Shown here: positions 5,889-17,919 of the stretch, piece after piece
Numbering within the stretch: the first letter of the stretch is position 1
Layout of the letters: each line of letters opens with the position of its first letter
Source: Urbifossiella limnaea
Lineage (GTDB): Bacteria > Planctomycetota > Planctomycetia > Gemmatales > Gemmataceae
Length of the DNA: 64,000 nt
Assembly: GCF_007747215.1 (NCBI RefSeq)
Contig: NZ_CP036273.1
Coordinates: 2,898,322 to 2,962,321 of the forward strand
Direction: 5' to 3'
The notes under the pieces: model-generated
What the model saw: only the letters and a program-made list of their open reading frames with translations
What the model was told of the DNA's origin: nothing
Databases searched by the model: none
Translations under genes and position numbers: made by a program

Positions 5889-7838
5889 ATGGCCGCCGCC
5901 CCACCCAGTGCGTTTCTCGTCGCCCGCCGGGACGACGGGTTTGGGGACGTGTACCCGCTCCAGGACGGGACGCGCTACACCCTCGGCCGCGCCCCCACCA
6001 ACCGCGTCGTGCTCCGCGACGACCTGTGCAGCCGCGAGCACGCCGAGGTCTTCCCCGCCGAGGGCGGCTGGTTCGTCCGCGACCTCGGGAGCCTCAACGG
6101 CACCCACCTCAACGGCGAACAACTCCGCCGCGAGCAGCGGCTCACGGCCCGCGACGACCTTCGCGTCGGCCGCGTCGAGTTCGTGTTCATCGAAGACCTG
6201 ACGCAAATCCCGGACGTGCCGCAGCCGGCGGCGTCGCGGTCGTCGGACAAGTCCGACGGGATGGCGATCAAGAAGCGCCTCGGGCAGACCAAGTACCACC
6301 CGCCGATTCCCGCGCCGTCGGCCGCGCCGCCGACCGAGCCGGCCCGCACCGACAGCCGGGTGTCGCCGTCGCAGGCGCTGGCCATCCTGTACCGCCTCGC
6401 CCTCGACATGGCCGACGCCGCCACGCCCGCCGAACTCGGAGAGTTGGTCGTGGACGCCGCGTTCCGCGCCACGCCGGCCGAGGTGGGGGCGGTGCTGGCA
6501 CTCAAGGAAGGCCGCGAGTTCGAGCCGGTGGTGTACCGGCACCGCGGGGCCGGTCACCCGACGTACCACAAGGTGTCCAACTTCGTCAGCCACGAGGTGC
6601 TGGGCACGAAGCAGGCCATCCTGGCGGAGAACGTGGCCCTCGAGCGGGCGCTGAAGGACCGCGACAGCATCGCCGACCTGAAGGTGGCCAGCCTCATCTG
6701 CGCCCCGGTGATCGTCGAGGATCAACTCATCGGGCTGTTCCACCTCTACCGGGCGCACATCACGCACCCGCTGAACGCGGACGACCTGGAGTTCACGCTC
6801 GCCGTCGCCCGCCAACTCGGCACCGCGTGGCACCGGCTGCGGAAGCAGGCGACGCTGTCCGTCGAGGTGCGTAACCTCAAGGACCAGCTCCGCATCGAGA
6901 GCGAGATGGTCGGCGACAGCGCCGGCCTGGCGACGATCGAGTCGCAGGCGAGCCGGGTCGCTGCCACGAAAGCCACGGTGTTGATCCGCGGCGAGAGCGG
7001 CGTCGGCAAGGAACTGGTGGCGCGGGCGATCCACTCGCGCAGCCCCCGCAAGGACGCGCCGTTCGTGACGCTCAACTGCGCGGCCCTGACCGAGACCCTG
7101 TTGGAGAGCGAGCTGTTCGGCCACGAGAAGGGGGCGTTCACCGGCGCGACCGAGCGGATGATCGGCAAGTTCGAGGCGGCCGACACCGGCACCATCTTCC
7201 TGGACGAGATCGGCGAGATGGCACAGACCACGCAGGCGAAGTTCCTGCGCGTGCTGGAGGGGCAGGCGTTCGAGCGCGTCGGCGGCAACACGCCGATCCG
7301 GGTGGACGTGCGCGTCGTCGCGGCGACGAACCGGCCGCTCGAAGAAGCCGTGCGTGCGGGCACGTTCCGCCGCGACCTGTTCTTCCGGTTGCAGGTGGTG
7401 CAGCTGGACGTGCCGCCGCTGCGAGACCGGCCGGAGGACGTGCCGCCGATCGCCGACCACTTCCTCAAGCGGTTCGCCCGCGAGACCGGCCGCAAGATGC
7501 GCGGCTTCACCCCCGCCGCGGTGGACAAGCTCAAGGGCTACCGCTGGCCGGGGAACGTCCGTGAACTGCGGAACGTCGTGGAGCGCGCGGTGGCGCTGGG
7601 GACCGGCCCGGTCGTCGACGCGGTCGACATCTGGCTGAGCGAACTGGACGTCGGCGGCCCGGTGATCGGCTCGGCGCCGGGCGTGTACCGGCCGGAGACG
7701 ATCGACGACGTGGAGAAGCGGCACATCGAGGCGACGCTGAAGTACACCGACTGGAACAAGTCGCAGGCGGCGGCGATCCTCGGGATCGAGCGCTCGACGC
7801 TCGACCGGAAGATCAAGGGGTACAACCTGGCGCGCTGA
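5889..7838 (+). CDS. FHA-GAF-AAA+ sigma-54-dependent transcriptional activator
   Basis: A 649-residue enhancer-binding protein. Domains in order: FHA (about 25-90, with LGRAPTNRVVL, SREHAEV and LGSLNGTHLNG), a Pro-rich linker, a GAF sensor domain (about 160-320), an AAA+ sigma-54 domain (about 345-580) and a Fis-type HTH (NKSQAAAILGIERSTLDRKI, about 620-643). Walker A is GESGVGKE (about 368), the sigma-54-contacting loop GAFTGA is intact (about 416) and Walker B is TIFLDEIGE (about 436). The FHA domain implies control by a phospho-threonine partner, for example a Ser/Thr kinase. Target genes are unknown. It is convergent with mutS, with only 3 bases between them. Confidence 0.93.
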   Translation: MAAAPPSAFLVARRDDGFGDVYPLQDGTRYTLGRAPTNRVVLRDDLCSREHAEVFPAEGGWFVRDLGSLNGTHLNGEQLRREQRLTARDDLRVGRVEFVFIEDLTQIPDVPQPAASRSSDKSDGMAIKKRLGQTKYHPPIPAPSAAPPTEPARTDSRVSPSQALAILYRLALDMADAATPAELGELVVDAAFRATPAEVGAVLALKEGREFEPVVYRHRGAGHPTYHKVSNFVSHEVLGTKQAILAENVALERALKDRDSIADLKVASLICAPVIVEDQLIGLFHLYRAHITHPLNADDLEFTLAVARQLGTAWHRLRKQATLSVEVRNLKDQLRIESEMVGDSAGLATIESQASRVAATKATVLIRGESGVGKELVARAIHSRSPRKDAPFVTLNCAALTETLLESELFGHEKGAFTGATERMIGKFEAADTGTIFLDEIGEMAQTTQAKFLRVLEGQAFERVGGNTPIRVDVRVVAATNRPLEEAVRAGTFRRDLFFRLQVVQLDVPPLRDRPEDVPPIADHFLKRFARETGRKMRGFTPAAVDKLKGYRWPGNVRELRNVVERAVALGTGPVVDAVDIWLSELDVGGPVIGSAPGVYRPETIDDVEKRHIEATLKYTDWNKSQAAAILGIERSTLDRKIKGYNLAR

Positions 7839-7841
7839 GGC

Positions 7842-10406
7842 TCAGAACGGCGGCCCGTTCGGGTCGTCGAACAGGGTCGGCCCTGCGGGCTTTCGCTTCG
7901 GCGCTTCCGGCGGCGCGACCGGCGTCGGCGTCGGCTTCTTCCGCGTCGGTTTGGGTTCCGGCGGCTTTGGTGCCGGCGTCTCCACCGCCGGCGGCGGTGT
8001 TCCGACGGGCAGCTGGTGCCGCGCTTCCAGGGTGCCGAGTACCGACTCGGCGCGGGCCAGCACCGGTTCCGGAACGCCCGCCAGCCGGGCGACGTGGATG
8101 CCGTAGCTCTTGTCGGCGTTGCCCGGCCCGATCTTGTGCAGGAACACCACGTCCTTCTCGTGCTCCTGGACCGTCACGTTGTAGTTCCGCAGGTTCGGCA
8201 GCGTCGCCGCGAGCTGCGCGAGTTCGTGGTAGTGCGTGGCGAATAGCGCCCGACAGCCGACCGCCCCGTGCAGGTACTCGGTGATGGCCCACGCGAGCGA
8301 CACGCCGTCGTACGTGCTGGTGCCGCGGCCGATCTCGTCGAGGATGACCAGGCTGCGCCGGGTGGCGTTGTTCAGGATGTTCGCCGCCTCCGTCATTTCG
8401 ACCATGAACGTGCTCTGGCCGCGGCTCAGTTCGTCGCTGGCGCCGACGCGAGTAAAGATGCGGTCGGTCAGGCCGACGGTCGCGGCCTTCGCGGGGACGA
8501 AGCTGCCGACGTGGGCCATAAGTGTGAGCAGCGCCACCTGCCGGATGAACGTGCTCTTGCCGCTCATGTTCGGCCCGGTGATGAGCCAGAAGGTGCCGGC
8601 CTCGGGGCCGAACGCGGCGTCGTTCGGGACGAACGTGCCCGGCGGCAGGATCACGTCGAGGACCGGGTGGCGGCCGTCCTTGATGTCGAGGACGGGTTCG
8701 TCAACCAGCACCGGGCGGACGTAGTTGCGGGACGCGGCCAACTCCGCGAGAGCCGCAAGGAAGTCGGCCGCGGCGAGCACGTCGGCGGTGTTCAGGAGGC
8801 GGTGCGTCTGCGCGGCCACCTGCTCGCGGAGCTGGTTGAACAGCTGTAGCTCCAGCGCCTGGCTCTTCTCCTGCGCGGACAGCACCTTCTCCTCGTACTC
8901 CTTCAGCTGCGGCGTGATGTAGCGCTCGGCGTTCTTCAGCGTCTGCTTGCGGACGTAGTCGGCCGGCACGCGGCCGGCGTTGGCGTGCGTCACCTCGATG
9001 TAGTAGCCGTGGACCTCGTTGTACCCGACCTTCAGGCTCGTGATGTTCGTCCGCGTGATCTCCGCCGCCTGGTAGCGGGCGATCCACCCTTTGCCTTCGC
9101 TGGACAGCTTCCGCAGCTCGTCCAGGTCGGGGCTGTAGCCCTCCTTGATCACGTCGCCGTCCTTCGCGGACAAGGGCGGGTCAACCTTTAGGGCTCGGTC
9201 GAGGAGGTCGCGGAGGTCGGGACACAGTTCGAGCCGCTGCTCCAACGCCGCCAGCAGCGACGAGCGGCGGCCGGACAGCTTCGCCTTCACGGCGGGCAAC
9301 AGGCGGAGCGTGGCGGCGATCTTCGCCAGGTCCGGCGGCGTGGCGCGGGCCGTCGAGACGCGCGTGGCGAGGCGTTGAATGTCGGAGCAAGCGTCGAGCT
9401 GGTCGCGGAGCTGGCCGCGGAGGGCGTGGTCCTTCACCAGTTCCTCGACGGCGTCGAGCCGGGCCGTGATCGCGGCGCGGTCGGTGAGCGGGGCCAGCAG
9501 GCTGTCGTGGAGCATCCGCGCGCCCATCGGCGTGACGGTGCGGTCGAGCACGGACAGCAGCGAGCCGTCGCGCTGGGCGTCGCGCAGGGTGCGCGTCAGT
9601 TCCAGGCTGCGGCGCGTGACCTCGTCGAGCGTCAGGAGCGTGTCGGGCCGGTGCGGCTGGAGGCGGCGCAGGTGCGACAGGCTGGCCCGGAGCGTCTCCT
9701 GCAAGTAGACGACGATCGCGCCCGCGGCCGTGAGGCACGGCTGGTCGTCCTCGAAGCCGAAGCCGGAGAGCGTCGCCACCTGGAAGTGCGTCTTGAGCGC
9801 TTGCGTCGCGGTCGTCGGGTCAAACGTCCAGTCCGGCCGGGGCGACCGCGTCCGCGGCATGACGACGCTCGCCGCTTCCGTGATCGTGCCTGCCTGTCCA
9901 TCCGCGTAAAGCACCTCGGCGGCGTTGAGGCGCGCGAACTCGTCGGTCAGCCGCGCGGCGGGCACGTCGGCCGCGCCGAAGACGCCGGCGCTGAGGTCGA
10001 CCCACGCCACGCCGAACACGCTGCTTTTCGTGGCGAAAACGGCGACGAGGTGGTTCGGCGACTTCGGGTCGAGCAAGCCCTCCTCGGTGACGGTGCCCGG
10101 CGTGACGACGCGGTTCACCTCGCGGTGGATGATCTTCTTCTTCGGGTCCGGCTCCTCCATCTGCTCGCACACGGCGACGCGGTGGCCGGCCTTGATGAGC
10201 TGACCGAGGTAGTGCTCCAGGCGGTGCACCGGCACGCCCGCCATGGGCACGGTGCCGTCGCGCTTCGTGAGCGTGAGGCCGAGCACTTTGGAGCCCAACT
10301 CGGCGTCGTCCTCGAACAGTTCGTAGAAGTCGCCGTTGCGAAAAAGGACAAGCATTCCCGGGTGAAGCGCCTTCGCGTCGCGGTACTGTTGCAGCATCCG
10401 GCTCAT
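7842..10406 (-). CDS. mutS: DNA mismatch repair protein MutS
   Basis: An 854-residue MutS1. The mismatch-reading Phe-X-Glu motif is in GDFYELF, about 25 residues from the start. The connector and lever domains are followed by the ATPase: ITGPNMSGKST (Walker A, about 608), STFMVEMTEAANIL, LVILDEIGRGTST (Walker B) and ATHYHEL. A Pro/Lys-rich C-terminal tail ends in TLFDDPNGPPF. The frame stays open upstream to 10949, but the ATG at 10406 (MSRMLQQYRDAKALHPG) matches the usual MutS N-terminus. It is divergent from kamA. It works with the MutL at 149-2044; no MutH is seen, in line with a methyl-independent system. Confidence 0.97.
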   Translation of the reverse strand: MSRMLQQYRDAKALHPGMLVLFRNGDFYELFEDDAELGSKVLGLTLTKRDGTVPMAGVPVHRLEHYLGQLIKAGHRVAVCEQMEEPDPKKKIIHREVNRVVTPGTVTEEGLLDPKSPNHLVAVFATKSSVFGVAWVDLSAGVFGAADVPAARLTDEFARLNAAEVLYADGQAGTITEAASVVMPRTRSPRPDWTFDPTTATQALKTHFQVATLSGFGFEDDQPCLTAAGAIVVYLQETLRASLSHLRRLQPHRPDTLLTLDEVTRRSLELTRTLRDAQRDGSLLSVLDRTVTPMGARMLHDSLLAPLTDRAAITARLDAVEELVKDHALRGQLRDQLDACSDIQRLATRVSTARATPPDLAKIAATLRLLPAVKAKLSGRRSSLLAALEQRLELCPDLRDLLDRALKVDPPLSAKDGDVIKEGYSPDLDELRKLSSEGKGWIARYQAAEITRTNITSLKVGYNEVHGYYIEVTHANAGRVPADYVRKQTLKNAERYITPQLKEYEEKVLSAQEKSQALELQLFNQLREQVAAQTHRLLNTADVLAAADFLAALAELAASRNYVRPVLVDEPVLDIKDGRHPVLDVILPPGTFVPNDAAFGPEAGTFWLITGPNMSGKSTFIRQVALLTLMAHVGSFVPAKAATVGLTDRIFTRVGASDELSRGQSTFMVEMTEAANILNNATRRSLVILDEIGRGTSTYDGVSLAWAITEYLHGAVGCRALFATHYHELAQLAATLPNLRNYNVTVQEHEKDVVFLHKIGPGNADKSYGIHVARLAGVPEPVLARAESVLGTLEARHQLPVGTPPPAVETPAPKPPEPKPTRKKPTPTPVAPPEAPKRKPAGPTLFDDPNGPPF

Positions 10407-10560
10407 GGCGGTCCCGCGCGGCTCGTCGGTGTCGGAAAGAGAAGTGTATCGGCGCGCGCGGCGGCGCGGGATGCCGGGAGCTGAGGCCGAAGTGCGCCGT
10501 GTCGCGCCGGTGTTGCGGGAAAAAGTGGGAAATTCCGCGCGGCAACGGCGGACGCTCAAC

Positions 10561-10588
10561 TTGTTTTTCACACACCCCGCGTTACGAT
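10561..10588 (+). promoter_or_regulatory. Candidate sigma-70 promoter for kamA
   Basis: The roughly 300-base mutS/kamA divergent region contains TTGTTT (10561-10566), a 16-base spacer and TACGAT (10583-10588) in a locally AT-richer stretch. Nothing else in the region looks like a gene. The match to consensus is partial. Confidence 0.3.
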
Positions 10589-10704
10589 CTGTTCTTAAGG
10601 TGTACGTCGCGCTTCGCGCACTCAAGGCGTCGCCCCCCCGCAGTGCCGGTCGTCGTCGGATGACACCGGCCCGGGTTAAGAGGCCCGTGGAGGCGAAACC
10701 CGGC

Positions 10705-12123
10705 ATGGCCGAACCCGACACTCGCCCGAGCACGACGCCGGCCGCGAGCGGATTCGACGACGACGAGCCCCCGAGTCGGTCGCGGCGGCTCCCCGCGTGG
10801 CAGGACGTCCCGGACCACCTCTGGACCGACTGGCGGTGGCAGACGCAGAACTCGGTGCGCTCCGTTCGCCAGCTCCGCACCCTGCTCACCTTCTCCCCCG
10901 CCGAGCTCGAAGCGATCGGCCGGATCGAGAGCGAGTACAAGCTCGCCATCCCGCCGTACTACTTCTCGCTCATCGACCCGGACGACCCGTTCGACCCGAT
11001 CCGCCTCCAGAGCGTGCCGTCGCCCCTGGAAGCGCAGAACCAGTCGGGGTACGAGCTGGAAGACCCGCTCGAGGAGGACAAGGACTCGCCGGTGCCGGGC
11101 CTCACGCACCGGTACCCCGACCGGGCGCTGCTCATCACCACGCCCAACTGCTCGATGTACTGCCGGTACTGCACGCGCAAGCGCGCCACGCTCACCCGCG
11201 GCGGCTGGGAGGGGATCAGCGCTGACGACGAGCGGATGATCGACTACGTCCGCCGCACCGAGAGCATCCGCGACGTGATCGTCAGCGGTGGCGACCCGCT
11301 GACCCTGCCGGTCGGCAAGCTCCGCTATTACCTGGACAACCTGAAGGCCATCGACCACGTGGACGTGATCCGCATCGGCACCCGCGTGCCGGTCACGCTC
11401 CCGCAGCGGCTGTTCGACCAGGAACTCATCGACCTGCTGGCGTCGGCCGAGAAGGTGTACATCCAGACGCACTTCAACCACCCGCGCGAGATCACGCCGG
11501 AGTCGGCGCGCGTGGTGAAGGCGCTGCTGAAGGCCGGGATGCCGGTGAACAACCACTCGGTGCTGCTGAAGGGCGTGAACGACGACCTGGGCACGATGCG
11601 CGAGTTGCTCCGCGGCCTGCTGCGGATCAAGGTCCGGCCGTACTACCTGTTCCACTGCGACCCGGTGACCGGTGCCGGCCACTTCCGCACGAGCGTGTGG
11701 AAGGGGCTCGAGATCATGGAAGGCCTCCGCGGGCACATGAGCGGCATCGGCATCCCGACTTACGTGGTGGACAGCCCGCACGGCGGCGGCAAGATTCCGA
11801 TGATGCCGAACTACCTCGTGAGCATGGCCGACGATGCGGTCGTGCTGCGGAACTACGAGGGGATGCTGATCCGTTACCAGGCCGAGGACAAGCCAGGTTT
11901 GTCGCCGGCCGCCGGCCCGCGGACCCGCGGCGTGAGCGCGCTGCTCCAGGGCGACAAGACGCAGTTGATGCCCGAGGGGAACGAACGGATGGAGCGCCGC
12001 CGGAGGATGGAAGTGCTGGACCCCGGCTACGAGGCGGGCTGCGGCGGCGGCGACTCGGACGGGCCGCCGGGTGTTCTGCCGCTGCCGGTGATGAACGGCC
12101 GCCACGCGGCGTCGAACGGCTGA
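10705..12123 (+). CDS. kamA: KamA-family radical SAM aminomutase (lysine 2,3-aminomutase-like)
   Basis: A 472-residue radical SAM protein with PLP-binding features. The cluster motif is CSMYCRYC (Cys about 149, 153, 156) followed by TRKR. The KamA-specific block runs from VSGGDPLTL through GTRVPVTLPQRL to HFNHPREITPE. The PLP-lysine motif appears as PHGGGK (about 359) instead of the usual PGGGGK. HCDPVTGAGHFRT matches the clostridial enzyme region. Lysine 2,3-aminomutase makes beta-lysine, and relatives act on glutamate or on the lysine of EF-P. The Pro/Arg-rich N-terminus and a 60-residue C-terminal tail are longer than usual. ATG 10705 is chosen over 10660 and 10405 because of the GGAGG upstream and because the longer frames cross the mutS promoter region. 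Two ATP-grasp ligases follow. Confidence 0.85.
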   Translation: MAEPDTRPSTTPAASGFDDDEPPSRSRRLPAWQDVPDHLWTDWRWQTQNSVRSVRQLRTLLTFSPAELEAIGRIESEYKLAIPPYYFSLIDPDDPFDPIRLQSVPSPLEAQNQSGYELEDPLEEDKDSPVPGLTHRYPDRALLITTPNCSMYCRYCTRKRATLTRGGWEGISADDERMIDYVRRTESIRDVIVSGGDPLTLPVGKLRYYLDNLKAIDHVDVIRIGTRVPVTLPQRLFDQELIDLLASAEKVYIQTHFNHPREITPESARVVKALLKAGMPVNNHSVLLKGVNDDLGTMRELLRGLLRIKVRPYYLFHCDPVTGAGHFRTSVWKGLEIMEGLRGHMSGIGIPTYVVDSPHGGGKIPMMPNYLVSMADDAVVLRNYEGMLIRYQAEDKPGLSPAAGPRTRGVSALLQGDKTQLMPEGNERMERRRRMEVLDPGYEAGCGGGDSDGPPGVLPLPVMNGRHAASNG

Positions 12124-12143
12124 AGCCCGAATCGTGAAACCTG

Positions 12144-12177
12144 AAAAGCCCGGGGACAGCCGTCCCCGGGCTTTTTT
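12144..12177 (+). terminator. Strong intrinsic terminator after kamA
   Basis: GCCCGGGGAC at 12148-12157 pairs with GTCCCCGGGC at 12162-12171 around a 4-base loop. The stem is extended by AAAA and TTTTTT. This is a textbook Rho-independent terminator. It ends only about 13 bases before the ATG of the next gene, so it may also act as an attenuator for that gene. Confidence 0.9.
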
Positions 12178-12190
12178 GTCGGAGCCACCC

Positions 12191-13213
12191 ATGCGGATCG
12201 GCATCGCCTGCACGCTGAAGCCGGACGGCCCGCCACCGCCCGGCGCCAGTGACGACTGGGCCGAGGAGTTCGACTCGCCGGCCACCGTAGAGGCCGTCGC
12301 CGCCGTGCTGCGGTCACTGGGTCACGACGTCCGCTCGCTCGGCGACGGCCGGCCGTTCCTCGAAGCCGTGATGGCCGACCCGCCGGACCTGGTGTTCAAC
12401 TTCGCCGAGGGGCAGGGCGTGTCGCGGTCCCGCGAGGCCCGTGTGCCGGCGGTGTGCGAGATGCTCGGCGTCCCCGTCACCGGCTCCGACCCGCTCGCGC
12501 TCGCCGTCGCGCTCGACAAGGACATGACCCGCCGCCTCGTGGAAGCCGCCGGTCTGACAGTGCCGAAGGGATTCACACTCGCGCCGCCGCCGGGCGAGTA
12601 CGACGGCGAGTACGCCGAGTTCCCCGCGCTACTCGAAGCCGCCGGCCTGACGTGCCCGGTGATCGTGAAGCCCGCCCTGGAGGGCAGCAGCAAGGGCATC
12701 CGCCGCACGGCGCTGGTGCGGACGCCCGAGGAGTTCGGCCCCACGGTCGTGGCGCTGTGGCAGGAGTACCGCCAACCGGCGCTGGTCGAGGAGTTCATCG
12801 TCGGCGACGAGGTGACGGTCGGCATCGTGGGGAACGACCCGCCACAACCGCTGGGCGTGATGCGTGTGGTCCCGAAGGAGTCGTCGGCCGAGTTCGTGTA
12901 CAGCCTGGAAGTGAAGCGCGCCTGGGACGGCGTGGTGAGCTACGAGGCGCCGGCGAAGTTGCCGCGCGACGTGTACGCGGCGGTGGAGGCCGACGCGCTG
13001 GCGGCGTTCGCCGCGCTCGGCTGCCGGGACGTGGCGCGGGCCGACTTCCGCGTCCGCGACGGGGTGCCGTACTTCCTGGAGATCAACCCGCTGCCGGGGC
13101 TGAACCCCGACAGCGGTGACTTGTGCTACCTCGCCTACCGCATGGGCCACACCTACGCCGACCTGATCCGCCTGATCTTCGGCGCCGCAGCGACGCGCTG
13201 CGGGCTCGCCTGA
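12191..13213 (+). CDS. ATP-grasp ligase, D-Ala-D-Ala-ligase-like (first of two)
   Basis: A 340-residue ATP-grasp enzyme. ATG 12191 with GGAG at 12181-12184 is chosen because the longer frame would read through the terminator hairpin. The N-terminal part (MRIGIACTLKP, then LVFNFAEGQGVSRSREARVP) matches the D-Ala-D-Ala ligase N-domain. The grasp core has VIVKPALEGSSKGI (about residues 157-170), LVEEFIVGDEVTVGI and the metal/ATP segment FLEINPLPGLNPDSG (about 296-310). It resembles Ddl, but the divergent N-terminus and the kamA context suggest a different amino-acid or peptide substrate. Whether it serves peptidoglycan cannot be judged from sequence. Confidence 0.8.
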   Translation: MRIGIACTLKPDGPPPPGASDDWAEEFDSPATVEAVAAVLRSLGHDVRSLGDGRPFLEAVMADPPDLVFNFAEGQGVSRSREARVPAVCEMLGVPVTGSDPLALAVALDKDMTRRLVEAAGLTVPKGFTLAPPPGEYDGEYAEFPALLEAAGLTCPVIVKPALEGSSKGIRRTALVRTPEEFGPTVVALWQEYRQPALVEEFIVGDEVTVGIVGNDPPQPLGVMRVVPKESSAEFVYSLEVKRAWDGVVSYEAPAKLPRDVYAAVEADALAAFAALGCRDVARADFRVRDGVPYFLEINPLPGLNPDSGDLCYLAYRMGHTYADLIRLIFGAAATRCGLA

Positions 13214-13251
13214 GGCGTGGTAACATTGGTGGTTACCGCGGAGTCCACGAG

Positions 13252-13872
13252 ATGAGCGCGATCCCGAAGCGAAAGCTGACTGAGGCCGAGTACCTCGAAA
13301 TCGAGCGCGCCGCCGAGTTCAAGAGCGAGTTCTACGACGGCGTCATGTACCCGATGCAAGGCCCGGCGGGCGTCGTTGGCATGGCCGGCGCCACCTTTGA
13401 CCACAATAAGATCAAGGAGAACGTGGCCCGGGCCCTCGGCAACGCCCTGGAAAGCGGTCCGTGCGAGGCGCTGTCAAGTGACATGCGCGTGAAGGTGCGC
13501 GCCACCGGCCTCCACACGTACCCGGATGTTGTCGTCTACTGCGGCACGCCAGAGTTCCTCGACGACGAGAAGCGTGATACCCTGCTGAATCCCACGGTCA
13601 TCGTCGAGGTCCTGTCCGAATCGACGGAGAAGTACGACCGGACGACGAAGATGATGCACTACCGGCGCATTCCGTCGCTCCGCGAGTACGTCATGATCTC
13701 CCAAGAGCAGACGCACGCAGAGCGGTACGTCCGGCAGACGAGCGGGCGGTGGTTGCTGATCGAGTACGATGACCCGGCTGGTGCGCTCGACCTGGAGTGC
13801 ATCTCCGTCGAGATACCCCTCGCGGCGATCTACCGCGGCGTCCGACTGCCCGAGAACCCGCCGTTGCGCTGA
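13252..13872 (+). CDS. Uma2-family putative endonuclease (DUF820)
   Basis: A 206-residue protein of the Uma2/DUF820 family, which has a PD-(D/E)XK nuclease-like fold. Typical features are the N-terminal LTEAEYLEIERAAEFKSEFYDG, then HNKIKENVARALGNAL, the acidic site YPDVVVYCGTP (Asp about 90) and VIVEVLSESTEKYDRTTK (Glu about 118), followed by YRRIPSLREYVMI. The biological role of the family is unsettled. It is abundant in cyanobacteria and planctomycetes and often appears as single-gene insertions. Here it interrupts the two ATP-grasp genes. A small inverted repeat (TAACATTGGTGGTTA) lies just upstream. Confidence 0.85.
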   Translation: MSAIPKRKLTEAEYLEIERAAEFKSEFYDGVMYPMQGPAGVVGMAGATFDHNKIKENVARALGNALESGPCEALSSDMRVKVRATGLHTYPDVVVYCGTPEFLDDEKRDTLLNPTVIVEVLSESTEKYDRTTKMMHYRRIPSLREYVMISQEQTHAERYVRQTSGRWLLIEYDDPAGALDLECISVEIPLAAIYRGVRLPENPPLR

Positions 13873-14013
13873 GCCGCGGTCCGCTCGTAACGGCTGTGCG
13901 GCCGCGTCGCGCCGTCCGCCGCGCGGATTCGCCGACGCCGCATTCCGCACACCCCCTGCGGCCGCAATAAAGTGTGGATGTTGAAGCAGGCCCGCCGGAG
14001 CCGCCGTCGTCCG

Positions 14014-15081
14014 ATGCCCCCCCGCGTGCTGGTGCTGTACAACGAGCCGGTCCTGCCCGCGTCCCACCCGGACGCCGGGGCCGAGCACGACATCCTCGAC
14101 ACCGTCGCCGACACGTTCAAGATCATCCAGGCGGCCGGGTTCGACGCCCGCAAGCTCGGCATCAACCACGACCCCCGGCCGCTCCTCGACGAAGTCCGCG
14201 ACCACCGTCCGGACGCCGTGTTCAACCTGTTTGAGGGCATCCCCACCCAGCCGGGGACGGAAGTGTCGGTCGCGGCGCTGCTGGAATGGTTGAACCTGCC
14301 GTTCACCGGCTGCCCGTCGCCGTGCCTGTCCGTCGGCCGCGACAAGGTGCGGAGCAAGCACCTCCTCGCCGCCGCCGGGCTGCCGACCGCCCCGTACCTT
14401 GTCGTCCCGGAAGGCGGTCCCATCCCCCGGTGGCGTCGGGGCTGGCCGGCCATCGTTAAGCCTGCGGCCCAGGACGCCAGCGTCGGCATCGACCAGGGGA
14501 GCGTCGTCAACACCCAGGCCGAACTGGCGGCACGGGTCGAGTACGTCCGCAAGACCTACGGCGGGGACTGCCTCGTCGAGGCGTTCGTGTTCGGCCGCGA
14601 GTTGCACGTGAACGTCATTGAGGTCGCCGGCGCCCGGGTGCCCGAGGTGCTGCCGCTGGCCGAGATCGAATTCCACGACCGCCGCCCGGGCAAGTGGCCG
14701 GTGTACACGTTCACCGCCAAGTGGGACATGGAGAGCGACGAGTACAAGAACGCGCCGCTGAAGGCGCCCGTGTACATCGACGAGCCGCTGTTCAAGGAGG
14801 TGGAACGAATCGCGGTGCGCGCGTTCCGCCTCTTCGAGTGCCGCGACTACGCCCGGCTCGACGTGCGGCTGACGGCCGAGGGGAAGTTCGCCGTTCTGGA
14901 GATGAACCCGAACCCGTACCTGAACAGCCTGGCGCTGGTGAACGGCCTGATGGCCACGAACCGCACGCACGAGTGGGTCGTCACGAATATGGCGCTCGCC
15001 GCCCTGGCCCGCGGCGGCACCCGCCCGGCCGCGGGCGAAGTCGACGTCCCCGTCGGCGTGGTTACCGGAGTGGAGACGTGA
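14014..15081 (+). CDS. ATP-grasp ligase, D-Ala-D-Ala-ligase-like (second of two)
   Basis: A 355-residue ATP-grasp enzyme related to the first but clearly distinct. ATG 14014 (MPPRVLVLYNEP) has GGAG upstream; GTG 13972 and ATG 13978 are alternatives. The N-domain carries AVFNLFEGIPTQPGTEVS. The grasp core carries AIVKPAAQDASVGIDQGSVV (about residues 145-164), CLVEAFVFGRELHVNVIE, and DYARLDVRLTAEGKFAVLEM followed by NPNPYLN (about 280-306). A 20-residue insertion around PGKWPVYTFTAKWDMESDEY is unlike standard Ddl. Its stop overlaps the GTG of the next gene, so the two are translationally coupled. The substrate is unknown. Confidence 0.8.
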   Translation: MPPRVLVLYNEPVLPASHPDAGAEHDILDTVADTFKIIQAAGFDARKLGINHDPRPLLDEVRDHRPDAVFNLFEGIPTQPGTEVSVAALLEWLNLPFTGCPSPCLSVGRDKVRSKHLLAAAGLPTAPYLVVPEGGPIPRWRRGWPAIVKPAAQDASVGIDQGSVVNTQAELAARVEYVRKTYGGDCLVEAFVFGRELHVNVIEVAGARVPEVLPLAEIEFHDRRPGKWPVYTFTAKWDMESDEYKNAPLKAPVYIDEPLFKEVERIAVRAFRLFECRDYARLDVRLTAEGKFAVLEMNPNPYLNSLALVNGLMATNRTHEWVVTNMALAALARGGTRPAAGEVDVPVGVVTGVET

Positions 15082-15590
15082 TCGCGCTCGAAGTCGTCAA
15101 CGCCGACACCGCCACCTTCGACTGCAGCTTCGGCCGCGGCTGCGAGGGCGTCTGCTGCCGTAACGGCCGGCCGAGCGTGGACGCCGACGAGGCCGCGCGC
15201 ATCACGGCCCTCTTGCCGCGGGTGCTGCCGCTGCTCCGCCCCGAGGCGCGGGCGGTGGTCGAGGCCGACGGGTTCCTGAGCAACCGCAAGAAGCTCGGAC
15301 AGCCGATGGTCCGCGTGGCGGCCGGGTGGTGTGTGTTGTTCAACGGCGGCTGCACCCTTCACGGCATCGGCGCCGCGGACGGCGACCCGCTGATGTACAA
15401 GCCGAGCCAGTGCGCGCTGTTCCCGCTGGAGAAGGGCGACGCCGGGTGGTACGTCCGGCAGTGGGGCTACGAGGGCGAGCAGTGGACGACGCTGTTCTGC
15501 CTCAACCCGGCGAACACGGCCCGGCCGGCCGTCGAGGCGCTGGAGGGCGAGTTGGCCCTCGCCGCGAAGCTCGACGGCGTTCCGGGCTAA
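15078..15590 (+). CDS. Cys-cluster (YkgJ/DUF3109-like) metal-binding protein
   Basis: A 170-residue protein with cysteines arranged as C-X6-C-X3-CC near the N-terminus (CSFGRGCEGVCC), then CVLFNGGC, QCALFPL and LFCLNP. This pattern is typical of YkgJ/DUF3109 proteins, which are thought to bind zinc or an iron-sulfur cluster. The GTG at 15078 overlaps the upstream stop (GTGA). Coupling to the ATP-grasp ligase implies a role in the same process, perhaps as a maturation or modification factor. That role is inference. Confidence 0.7.
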   Translation: MIALEVVNADTATFDCSFGRGCEGVCCRNGRPSVDADEAARITALLPRVLPLLRPEARAVVEADGFLSNRKKLGQPMVRVAAGWCVLFNGGCTLHGIGAADGDPLMYKPSQCALFPLEKGDAGWYVRQWGYEGEQWTTLFCLNPANTARPAVEALEGELALAAKLDGVPG

Positions 15591-15607
15591 TTCGGCCGCG
15601 GCGCCCC

Positions 15608-15636
15608 TTGACAGGTTGGGGCGGTCCTAGAATGAT
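15608..15636 (+). promoter_or_regulatory. Candidate sigma-70 promoter for the STAS/HATPase pair
   Basis: TTGACA at 15608-15613 matches the -35 consensus exactly. A 17-base spacer leads to AATGAT at 15631-15636 (four of six to the -10). It lies between the Cys-cluster gene and the STAS gene and would give a leader of about 80 bases. Confidence 0.5.
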
Positions 15637-15720
15637 GCCTTGGAATCCCTTGTGCGGACTCGCGCGGTGGCGGTCGTGGTTCGTCGCGACCGGCCGAGCA
15701 CGTCCCCCCGGAGGTCTGAG

Positions 15721-16086
15721 ATGACAGGCTCAGGTGGCCGTCGGCGGCGGCTCGAAGTCGAGGACATGGGGGACATCGCGGTCGTCAACTTCGTCGACAA
15801 GAAGATCCTCGACGAGCAGAACATCCAGATGATCGGCGACGACCTGTTCCGGCTCGTGGACGAACTCGGCCGGAAGAAGGTGCTGCTCAACTTCCAAAAC
15901 GTCGAGTTCATGTCCAGCGCCGCGCTCGGCAAGCTCATCACCCTCCACCGCAAGTTGCAGGGCGCCGGCGGCAAGCTGGTGCTGTGCAAGATCGCCAAGG
16001 ACATCCTGGACGTGTTCCGCATCACCAAGCTCGACAAGATCCTGGTGATCGTGGCGGACGAGCAGGCCGGGCTCCAGGCGTTCTGA
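15721..16086 (+). CDS. STAS-domain anti-anti-sigma factor
   Basis: A 121-residue single-domain STAS protein of the SpoIIAA/RsbV class. ATG 15721 has GGAGG upstream. The region LLNFQNVEFMSSAALGKLI holds the serine pair where SpoIIAA-type proteins are phosphorylated (about residues 66-67). Such proteins bind and sequester an anti-sigma kinase when unphosphorylated. The ATPase kinase gene follows 16 bases later, so the two form a partner-switch pair. The sigma factor they control is not adjacent. Confidence 0.88.
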   Translation: MTGSGGRRRRLEVEDMGDIAVVNFVDKKILDEQNIQMIGDDLFRLVDELGRKKVLLNFQNVEFMSSAALGKLITLHRKLQGAGGKLVLCKIAKDILDVFRITKLDKILVIVADEQAGLQAF

Positions 16087-16102
16087 CCCCCCGGGTGCTC
16101 CG

Positions 16103-16549
16103 ATGACCGGTGCGGCGCCTCCCGGCGGGTACGACACCGAGTACGAGTTCTTCAGCGACCTGGGGGAGGTTCGTCTCCTCCAGGACCGCCTGGAGTCCGC
16201 CCTCGCCACCGCCGGGTGGGGCGAGTCGGAGCAGTTCGCCATCAAGCTCGCCGTCGAGGAGGCCGCCGTCAACGCGGTCAAGCACGGCAACCAGTACGAC
16301 CCCGACAAGCGCGTCCGCATCGGCTACACCATTACCCCGAAGCGGTTCGAGATCCGCATCGAGGACGACGGCCCCGGCTTCAACCCGGCCGACGTGCCCG
16401 ACCCGACGGACGTGGTCAACATCGAGCGGCCGTGCGGCCGCGGGCTGCTGCTGATCAACGGCTTCATGGACGAGGTCCGCTACCACGGCCGCGGCAACGT
16501 GGTGACGATGAGCAAGGTGAAAGACGCCGAGCCGCCCGCCGACAGCTGA
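16103..16549 (+). CDS. HATPase_c_2 serine kinase / anti-sigma factor (RsbW-like)
   Basis: A 148-residue GHKL ATPase of the RsbW/SpoIIAB type. The N box is [12 protein letters not shown] (about residues 53-64), the G1 box EDDGPGF (about 91) and the G2 box [14 protein letters not shown] (about 113). The family phosphorylates its STAS partner and binds a sigma factor. The STAS gene lies immediately upstream. The Gfo/Idh gene starts 50 bases downstream and may be transcribed separately. Confidence 0.88.
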
Positions 16550-16599
16550 CGCCGCGACACTTCCGCCGGTTCCGTCTTCACCCTCCCCCGGAGCCCGTC

Positions 16600-17919
16600 A
16601 TGCGCCGCCGCACCTTTCTGGCATCCGCCGCCGGTACCCTCGCCGCGCCGATGGTACTCTCCGCCCGCCAGCCGAACGAGCGGCTCAACGTCGCCGTCAT
16701 CGGCTGCGGCGGCCGCGGCGCCGCGAACCTGGCGGGAGTCGCCGCCGAGAACGTCGTCGCCCTGTGCGACGTGAACCGCGCTGCGATCGGGGCCGCCGCG
16801 AGCCGCTTCCCCCGCGCCGCCCACTACGCCGACTTCCGCCGCCTGTTCGACGAGCGCGAGCGCGCCTTCGACGCCGTCGTGGTGAGCACCTGCGAGCACA
16901 CGCACGCCCACGCCACGCTGCGGGCGCTGCGGGCCGGCAAGCACGTCTACTGCGAGAAGCCGCTGACGCACAACGTCTGGGAAGCCCGCCTCATCCGCAC
17001 CGAGGCGGCCAAGACGAAGCTGGCGACGCAGATGGGGACGCAGATTCACGCCACCGACAACTACCGCCGCGTGGTCGAGTTGGTGAAGGCCGGGGCCATC
17101 GGCGGCGTGACCGAGGCGCACGTCTGGGTCGGCCGCGCGTGGGGCTTGCAGTCGGCCGAGGACGCGAAGAAGAACGGCGACATCGTTCACGCCACCGACC
17201 GGCCGACGGAGGACGTGCGGCCGCCGGCCGACCTGGACTGGGACTTGTGGCTCGGCGGCGCCCCCGCGCGGCCGTTCAACCCGGTGTACGTGCCGGGGCC
17301 GAAGTGGTACCGCTGGTGGGCGTTCGGCAACGGCACCATGTCCGACCTCGGCAGCCACTGGAACGACCTGCCGTTCTGGGCGCTCGACCTGAAGGCGCCG
17401 ACCAGCATCGAGGCGAGCGGCCCGCTGCCGCCGCACCCGGAGATCGCCCCGGCGTCGATGCAGGCGACGTACCGCTTCCCCGCCCGCGGCTCGATGCCCG
17501 CGGTGACGATGACGTGGTACCAGGGGGCGAACAAGCCGCCGGCGTGGACGGCCCGGACGATCCCGCAGTGGGGCAGCGGCGTCCTGTTCGTCGGCTCGCG
17601 CGGGATGCTACTCGCCGACTACTCGCGGCACCTGCTGCTGCCCGAGAACCAGTTCGCCGACTTCGCCCGCCCGCTGCCGTCGATCCCGAAGTCGCTCGGG
17701 CACTACACCGAGTGGATTCACGCGGCCAAGACCGGCGCCCCGACCACGTGCAACTTCGAGTACGCCGGCTGGCTGACGGAGGCGAACCACCTCGGCAACG
17801 TGGCCTACCGCGTCGGCAAGAAGCTCGACTGGGACGCCGCGGCGATGAGGGCGACGAACGCCCCCGAGGCGGACGCGCTGATCCGCCGCGAGTACCGCCG
17901 CGGGTGGGAACTGGCTTGA
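16600..17919 (+). CDS. Gfo/Idh/MocA-family oxidoreductase, Tat-exported
   Basis: A 439-residue NAD(P)-dependent oxidoreductase. It opens with [20 protein letters not shown], which resembles a Tat signal. The Rossmann motif AVIGCGGRG follows, then [20 protein letters not shown] and the family-typical CEKPL (about 118). The C-terminal domain includes [14 protein letters not shown]. Exported members in planctomycetes are numerous and probably act on sugars or polyols, but this substrate is unknown. ATG 16600 is chosen because it begins the signal sequence. Confidence 0.88.

Follow-up and report, generated by a model that had tools for sequence, protein, structure and literature searches.

A Gemmatales gene block for a KamA-family aminomutase and two Ddl-like ATP-grasp ligases, a candidate pathway to a beta-lysine amide

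The DNA described here is a window of 64 kb from the 7.8-Mb single-contig genome (97% complete) of Urbifossiella limnaea, a planctomycete of the order Gemmatales. It carries a block of genes (Table 1) for a KamA-family aminomutase (KamA), two ATP-grasp ligases that resemble D-alanine-D-alanine ligase (Ddl) and are called Lig1 and Lig2, and a Cys-cluster protein. The block is read, with moderate confidence, as a biosynthetic pathway for an amide or small peptide that contains beta-lysine. In the proposed route KamA, with S-adenosylmethionine (SAM), a [4Fe-4S] cluster and pyridoxal phosphate (PLP), would convert L-lysine into beta-lysine by shifting its amino group from C2 to C3, as the invariant residues of the enzyme suggest. 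Lig1 would use ATP to form an acyl phosphate and then a first amide bond in which beta-lysine takes part; a second amide bond would be made by Lig2. The ligase chemistry follows from ATP-grasp residues that are invariant; that the ligases use beta-lysine, and in what order and with what partners they act, is inferred from the linkage of the genes and the changes at substrate residues. A GNAT acetyltransferase, whose gene lies elsewhere in this genome and beside Lig2 or fused to it in relatives, probably acetylates a free amine of the product. For the Cys-cluster protein an accessory role in metal handling is probable. The product would most likely be a soluble cytoplasmic metabolite (solute, protectant or cofactor-like molecule).

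KamA has the Radical_SAM and LAM_C domains and passes the cut-off of TIGR00238. Its closest equivalog model is that of the lysine 2,3-aminomutase (LAM) AblA (TIGR03820; 457 bits, under the cut-off of 525.4 bits), and by these profile scores it is filed in the KamA family and not as AblA itself. It lies far under the cut-offs of the EpmB (225 of 369 bits), arginine aminomutase and glutamate aminomutase models. The best relative of solved structure is the lysine 2,3-aminomutase of Clostridium subterminale (2a5h; E 6e-126, 48% identity). The window KamA was aligned with 32 further KamA of Planctomycetota (33 in total) and with 67 KamA from the distant operons described below. The residues C125, C129 and C132 (CxxxCxxC), R134, D293, D330 and K337 (LAM numbering) are invariant in both sets (33/33 and 67/67); the test of LAM membership took K337 as the PLP residue and CxxxCxxC as the cluster motif. 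D293 and D330 are the lysine-binding aspartates of LAM, and the EpmB of Escherichia coli has Glu at position 330 of the alignment. Because the cofactor residues and both of these aspartates are kept and the EpmB, arginine and glutamate models score far too low, KamA is inferred to be a lysine-type 2,3-aminomutase. The initial annotation had seen a possible producer of a beta-amino acid, and the lysine-type residues predict one; glutamate, which it had also named as a substrate to try, was rejected on the invariant D293 and D330. In one genome (G029, L121:8256-9719) the KamA gene has in-frame stops while the adjoining ligases are both intact, from either decay or an assembly error.

Lig1 and Lig2 match PF07478 (E 7e-29 and 6e-24, respectively) and lie far under every Ddl equivalog cut-off. 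The nearest folds in the PDB to the AlphaFold2 model of Lig1 (predicted local distance difference test score, pLDDT, 91) are those of Ddl. In a tree of 117 ligase proteins, Lig1 of Gemmatales (in all counts, families f1 and f2 of the relatives searched) forms a clade with Lig1 of the distant operons (SH-aLRT 96), and Lig2 of Gemmatales forms one with the distant Lig2 and a third paralogue of Gemmatales (SH-aLRT 98). Ddl proteins separate from both clades with a support of 100, in keeping with the earlier view that neither ligase is an ordinary Ddl. From the tree, the window ligases are assigned as orthologues of the distant-operon Lig1 and Lig2. The DdlB residues K97, K144, E187, K215, R255, D257, E270 and N272 are kept in both ligases, with one conservative exception (E270D). 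DdlB H63 is replaced by Glu in all 211 Lig1 and Lig2 proteins, and Y216 by Arg or Glu in most Lig1 and by Trp in 97/97 Lig2. In Lig2, S150 is changed to Ala or to Cys/Gly, and S281-L282 is lost (Ala-Gly or gaps). Since the ATP-grasp residues are kept and the changes at the D-Ala positions are fixed, both proteins should be working enzymes with substrates other than those of Ddl. They share the fold and the ATP-grasp catalytic core of the Ddl and Van ligases, but differ from them in their separate clades, in the fixed changes at H63, E68, Y216 and S281-L282, and in missing the Ddl cut-offs. The third, Lig2-like clade (GL3; L134 and L152-L156, in f2 genomes, G008 and G029) departs from the ATP-grasp core, with Gln at the ATP-binding K144 of DdlB in 6/6 proteins and Gln at E180.

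It is highly improbable that either ligase serves peptidoglycan synthesis as the D-Ala-D-Ala ligase in an organism that lost its Ddl. The window's genome has no other Ddl and no canonical Ddl was found above cut-off in any Gemmatales genome searched, which leaves a vacancy for such an enzyme, and glycan-strand sugars and peptidoglycan were reported chemically in Gemmata obscuriglobus (PMC4432640). That report conflicts with the described loss of precursor genes (murA, C, D, F and G) in Gemmatales (PMC12283558). MurF was likewise not found above cut-off in the Gemmatales genomes searched, and the D-Ala positions are changed in both ligases. Six other relatives of the class have a canonical Ddl, and one of them (G058) has it in addition to the Lig1-Lig2 pair. 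A role as peptidoglycan Ddl was rejected on the tree, the changed D-Ala residues and the missing MurF; peptidoglycan synthesis is strongly disfavoured for this genome, and the cell-wall part proposed in the initial annotation is not retained. Some Gemmataceae have proteins of 850-990 aa that match both ATP-grasp and Mur-ligase models and are possibly cyanophycin-synthetase-like (G022:C74, G023:C949, G026:C148, G013:C1:2873367); none was seen in the genome of the window.

Few bacterial roles of beta-lysine are known, namely in lysine fermentation, as the acetyl-beta-lysine osmolyte, in the modification of elongation factor P (EF-P) and in some antibiotics. The EpmA-EpmB system is like the proposed route in that a KamA-family enzyme supplies beta-lysine, which is afterwards amide-linked. 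It differs in that the window KamA is not EpmB (32% identical, under the cut-off) and in that the joining enzymes are of the ATP-grasp type and not a tRNA-synthetase paralogue. No EpmA was found above cut-off in the genome, and the sole strong match to the EpmA model reads as a lysyl-tRNA synthetase. The EF-P of this genome has Asn at the position of Lys34, in PGNW instead of PGK(G); Lys34 is present in 97% of the EF-P from organisms with EpmA and EpmB (PMC2821294). Beta-lysylation of EF-P was rejected on the EpmB score, the missing EpmA and the EF-P without Lys34, and EF-P modification is strongly disfavoured for this genome. A wider form of the idea, in which a protein or an envelope component is modified with beta-lysine, Lig1 building a unit and Lig2 attaching that unit to a macromolecular amine, as a replacement of EpmA or as a ligase of the RimK or tubulin-tyrosine ligase (TTL) type, is rather unlikely. 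Lig2 has lost the S281-L282 that holds the carboxylate of the second amino acid in Ddl, and its acceptor may be one without a free carboxylate; one Lig2 (L173) also has a weak TTL-family match. Against this, EF-P is an unlikely target for the reasons above, and no conserved candidate target protein was seen in the operons.

The association of the genes was followed in 59 genomes of relatives, the window's own included. Lig1 is present in 41 of them, and a LAM-type KamA in all 41 (that of G029 broken by stops). The 13 relatives of the class outside Gemmatales that have no Lig1 have either an EpmB-like KamA or none, never a LAM-type one. KamA and Lig1 are at most 500 bp apart in 32/39 Gemmatales genomes, and KamA, Lig1 and Lig2 are all together in 19/39; many of the 39 are drafts, and contig ends lower these counts. 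The KamA-Lig1 synteny is beyond chance, and the block which the initial annotation had marked for a survey of relatives is syntenic in them. The trio is single copy and near-universal in Gemmatales (KamA 70-85% identical). In an even draw across Planctomycetota, Lig1 was found in 34/195 genomes and 28/143 genera.

When 84,980 species genomes were scanned with the Lig1 alignment, at least 575 relatives were found, of which the best 80 loci were examined. By record title these belong to Planctomycetota, Desulfobacterota/Deltaproteobacteria, Bacteroidota, Acidobacteriota, WOR-3, Sumerlaeota and others; many are metagenome bins, for which single phylum labels may err, and the overall spread holds. 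In the distant loci KamA precedes Lig1 in 63/69, with a median gap of 16 bp, and Lig2 follows Lig1 in 52/71, with a median gap of -1 bp. A GNAT acetyltransferase and/or a protein with a histone-deacetylase domain is present in 48/60, and a CxxCxxCC protein in 13, typically between KamA and Lig1. The block is real and larger than first proposed: in several other phyla the trio forms an operon, joined by GNAT and in some cases by a deacetylase or another Cys-cluster protein. The glutamate and cell-wall roles are disfavoured, as described above. In two loci (L225:1293-3047, L234:4774-7032) the deacetylase is a protein of about 580 aa, with the histone-deacetylase domain and an N-terminus of 260 residues that matches no assigned domain, and once it is fused to GNAT. 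This 580-aa protein was not found in the relatives, which have general family members of 300-400 aa, none of them beside the block, and no deacetylase is claimed for Gemmatales.

An independent case of the same pairing of KamA with a ligase is found on a plasmid of Thioflavicoccus mobilis (L251:4956-10437), where KamA stands beside an ATP-grasp ligase closer to Lig1 and Lig2 than to Ddl. The neighbours are genes for ornithine cyclodeaminase, SbnA and diaminobutyrate aminotransferase, and the plasmid cluster is possibly a small-molecule cluster (diaminopropionate/diaminobutyrate). This link, together with the patchy distribution of Lig1 in Planctomycetota, would suit a product of specialised metabolism, for example a siderophore or an antibiotic-like beta-lysine peptide. 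Such a product is unlikely: the trio is near-universal, single copy and well conserved in Gemmatales, and no recurring exporter, non-ribosomal peptide synthetase or receptor was seen beside the operons.

The Cys-cluster protein belongs to a known Pfam family, DUF3109, and its 8 Cys are invariant among 10 relatives. As the initial annotation had noted, it is coupled to Lig2, its GTG start at 15078 overlapping the Lig2 stop codon (15079-15081). Of the 25 Gemmatales genomes with both genes, 12 have them no more than 800 bp apart, including 4 in which Lig2 is away from Lig1. A weak profile match (hhalign 75%) connects it with the CxxCxxCC protein of the distant operons, and both may be accessories of one kind. 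Its AlphaFold2 model is poor (pLDDT 68).

The blocks of Gemmatales are usually without a linked GNAT, and that of the window has none. A profile of the distant GNAT finds matches in 38/41 Lig1-bearing genomes (E about 1e-27 to 1e-39), with values of 1e-69 or better in G052 and G058 and weaker matches (1e-22 to 1e-29) in 4 of the 13 class relatives without Lig1. Two unlinked relatives are present in the genome of the window (G000:C1:4115272 and C1:1856164). In two genera of Gemmatales (G017, G010) Lig2 carries GNAT as a C-terminal fusion; these fusions and the profile matches support an acetylation step. In some Gemmatales genomes the GNAT gene has a response regulator and an FAD oxidoreductase as neighbours, which give no clue to a pathway. 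The best NCBIfam model for GNAT is RimI, and no AblB model appeared for it.

These results also bear on the AblA-AblB system. KamA is AblA-like, with the same cofactor and lysine residues, and is close to AblA by its TIGR03820 score of 457 bits; a GNAT is associated in both. It is nevertheless improbable that the genes serve the ordinary N-epsilon-acetyl-beta-lysine osmolyte or lysine fermentation, with ligases that are unrelated. KamA is under the AblA cut-off and bears a tail motif that AblA lacks, the associated GNAT is not AblB-like, and the window set adds two ATP-grasp ligases, which co-occur with KamA across phyla, and the Cys-cluster protein.

The tail in question lies N-terminal to the catalytic domain of KamA and is an acidic run that ends in EPP followed by Gly or Ser. 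It is present in 32/33 KamA of the Gemmatales set (including G052 and G058) and in 60/67 distant-operon KamA, versus 1.9 expected from shuffled tails. The EPP[GS] motif occurs in 7/651 other open reading frames of the same loci and in none of 14 reference aminomutases. In the proposed route a partner protein probably docks on the tail, which is a guess; alternatively, and equally as a guess, its PP pair may pause the ribosome.

Taken at its widest, the proposal is of a primary-metabolism pathway shared across phyla that leads to an acetylated beta-lysine di- or tripeptide or a cofactor-like amide, with the EPP tail recruiting the ligases and beta-lysine being handed on directly. This version is tentative. 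A known parallel is the synthesis of N-acetylglutaminylglutamine amide, in which a GNAT and an ATP-grasp ligase (sometimes as one protein) and a hydrolase give an acetylated dipeptide solute; that pathway has no aminomutase, one ligase, an asparagine-synthetase-like amidotransferase and an M42 peptidase. Each enzyme class of the block is known and the combination is not, and no description of the gene set was found in the literature searched (open-licence PMC papers).

Several observations weigh against the proposed pathway. The hairpin between KamA and Lig1 has a perfect stem of 10-12 bp, a loop of AGCC and six T after it, with A-runs upstream and T-runs downstream. The region 12124-12191 folds with -35 kcal/mol (z -4.8), and the hairpin is the stronger of two such perfect inverted-repeat sites in the window. 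Its core was not found in the examined loci of other genomes, and an automated terminator scan did not list it. KamA and Lig1 may be transcribed separately in this strain. In one genome (G006) KamA, Lig1 and Lig2 lie in three distant places; because of this dispersal and of the hairpin, coexpression is not assured. Monophyly of the Gemmatales and distant KamA was neither rejected nor shown (approximately unbiased test, p 0.125), and that the product is the same in Gemmatales and in the distant lineages is assumed. The GNAT of the window genome is unlinked, and its orthology is based on a profile match and not on a tree. The hairpin and the scattered genes of G006 would also suit chance neighbours with separate functions. 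This is most improbable and largely refuted already by the overlapping genes, the order kept in many phyla, the perfect co-occurrence of KamA and Lig1 in the relatives searched, and the Lig2-GNAT fusions.

Table 1. Features of the aminomutase-ligase block, in window positions
Feature	Position	Strand	Evidence
KamA-family lysine 2,3-aminomutase (radical SAM, PLP), predicted, 472 aa	10705..12123	+	Pfam, NCBIfam, residues
KamA N-terminal acidic tail motif DDDEPPS	10756..10776	+	[DE]-rich EPP[GS] motif
Terminator-like hairpin between KamA and Lig1	12148..12177	+	Fold energy, perfect inverted repeat
Lig1, Ddl-like ATP-grasp ligase, 340 aa from ATG	12191..13213	+	PF07478
Uma2-family open reading frame between the ligases	13252..13872	+	PF05685
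Lig2, second Ddl-like ATP-grasp ligase, 355 aa	14014..15081	+	PF07478
Cys-cluster protein, DUF3109 (PF11307)	15078..15590	+	Pfam; overlaps Lig2 stop

All five open reading frames of the block were confirmed, each matching its expected family in Pfam or NCBIfam. A GTG at 12134 is unlikely as the start of Lig1, because the hairpin comes after it and the conserved N-terminus of the family begins downstream of the hairpin, at the ATG at 12191. The Uma2 gene starts with ATG. In the closest relative, a genome of the same genus (G001), the gap between Lig1 and Lig2 is about 200 bp and there is no Uma2 gene in it; the gene is therefore not part of the block and is either an insertion in the window or a loss in G001. 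An Rfam scan of 10000-16700 gave no matches. The block is followed by genes for a STAS-domain protein and an HATPase_c_2 (anti-sigma-type) protein (15640-16549), homologues of which also come after the block in G002 and G025 and are near KamA in the dispersed genome G006. An FHA-GAF sigma-54 activator is encoded at 5889-7838; at several loci of Gemmatales (L128, L129, L144) its relatives adjoin Lig2 or Lig1.

Annotation pipelines may name these ligases D-Ala-D-Ala ligase, a name carried by plasmid relatives. Such naming would falsely imply a peptidoglycan step in bacteria reported to be without most of the precursor genes. A gene set near-universal in Gemmatales and present in contigs of several other phyla would add a further route of beta-lysine use, probably to a common metabolite that has no name so far. 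Gemmata species are culturable, so knockouts and metabolomics could identify the product.

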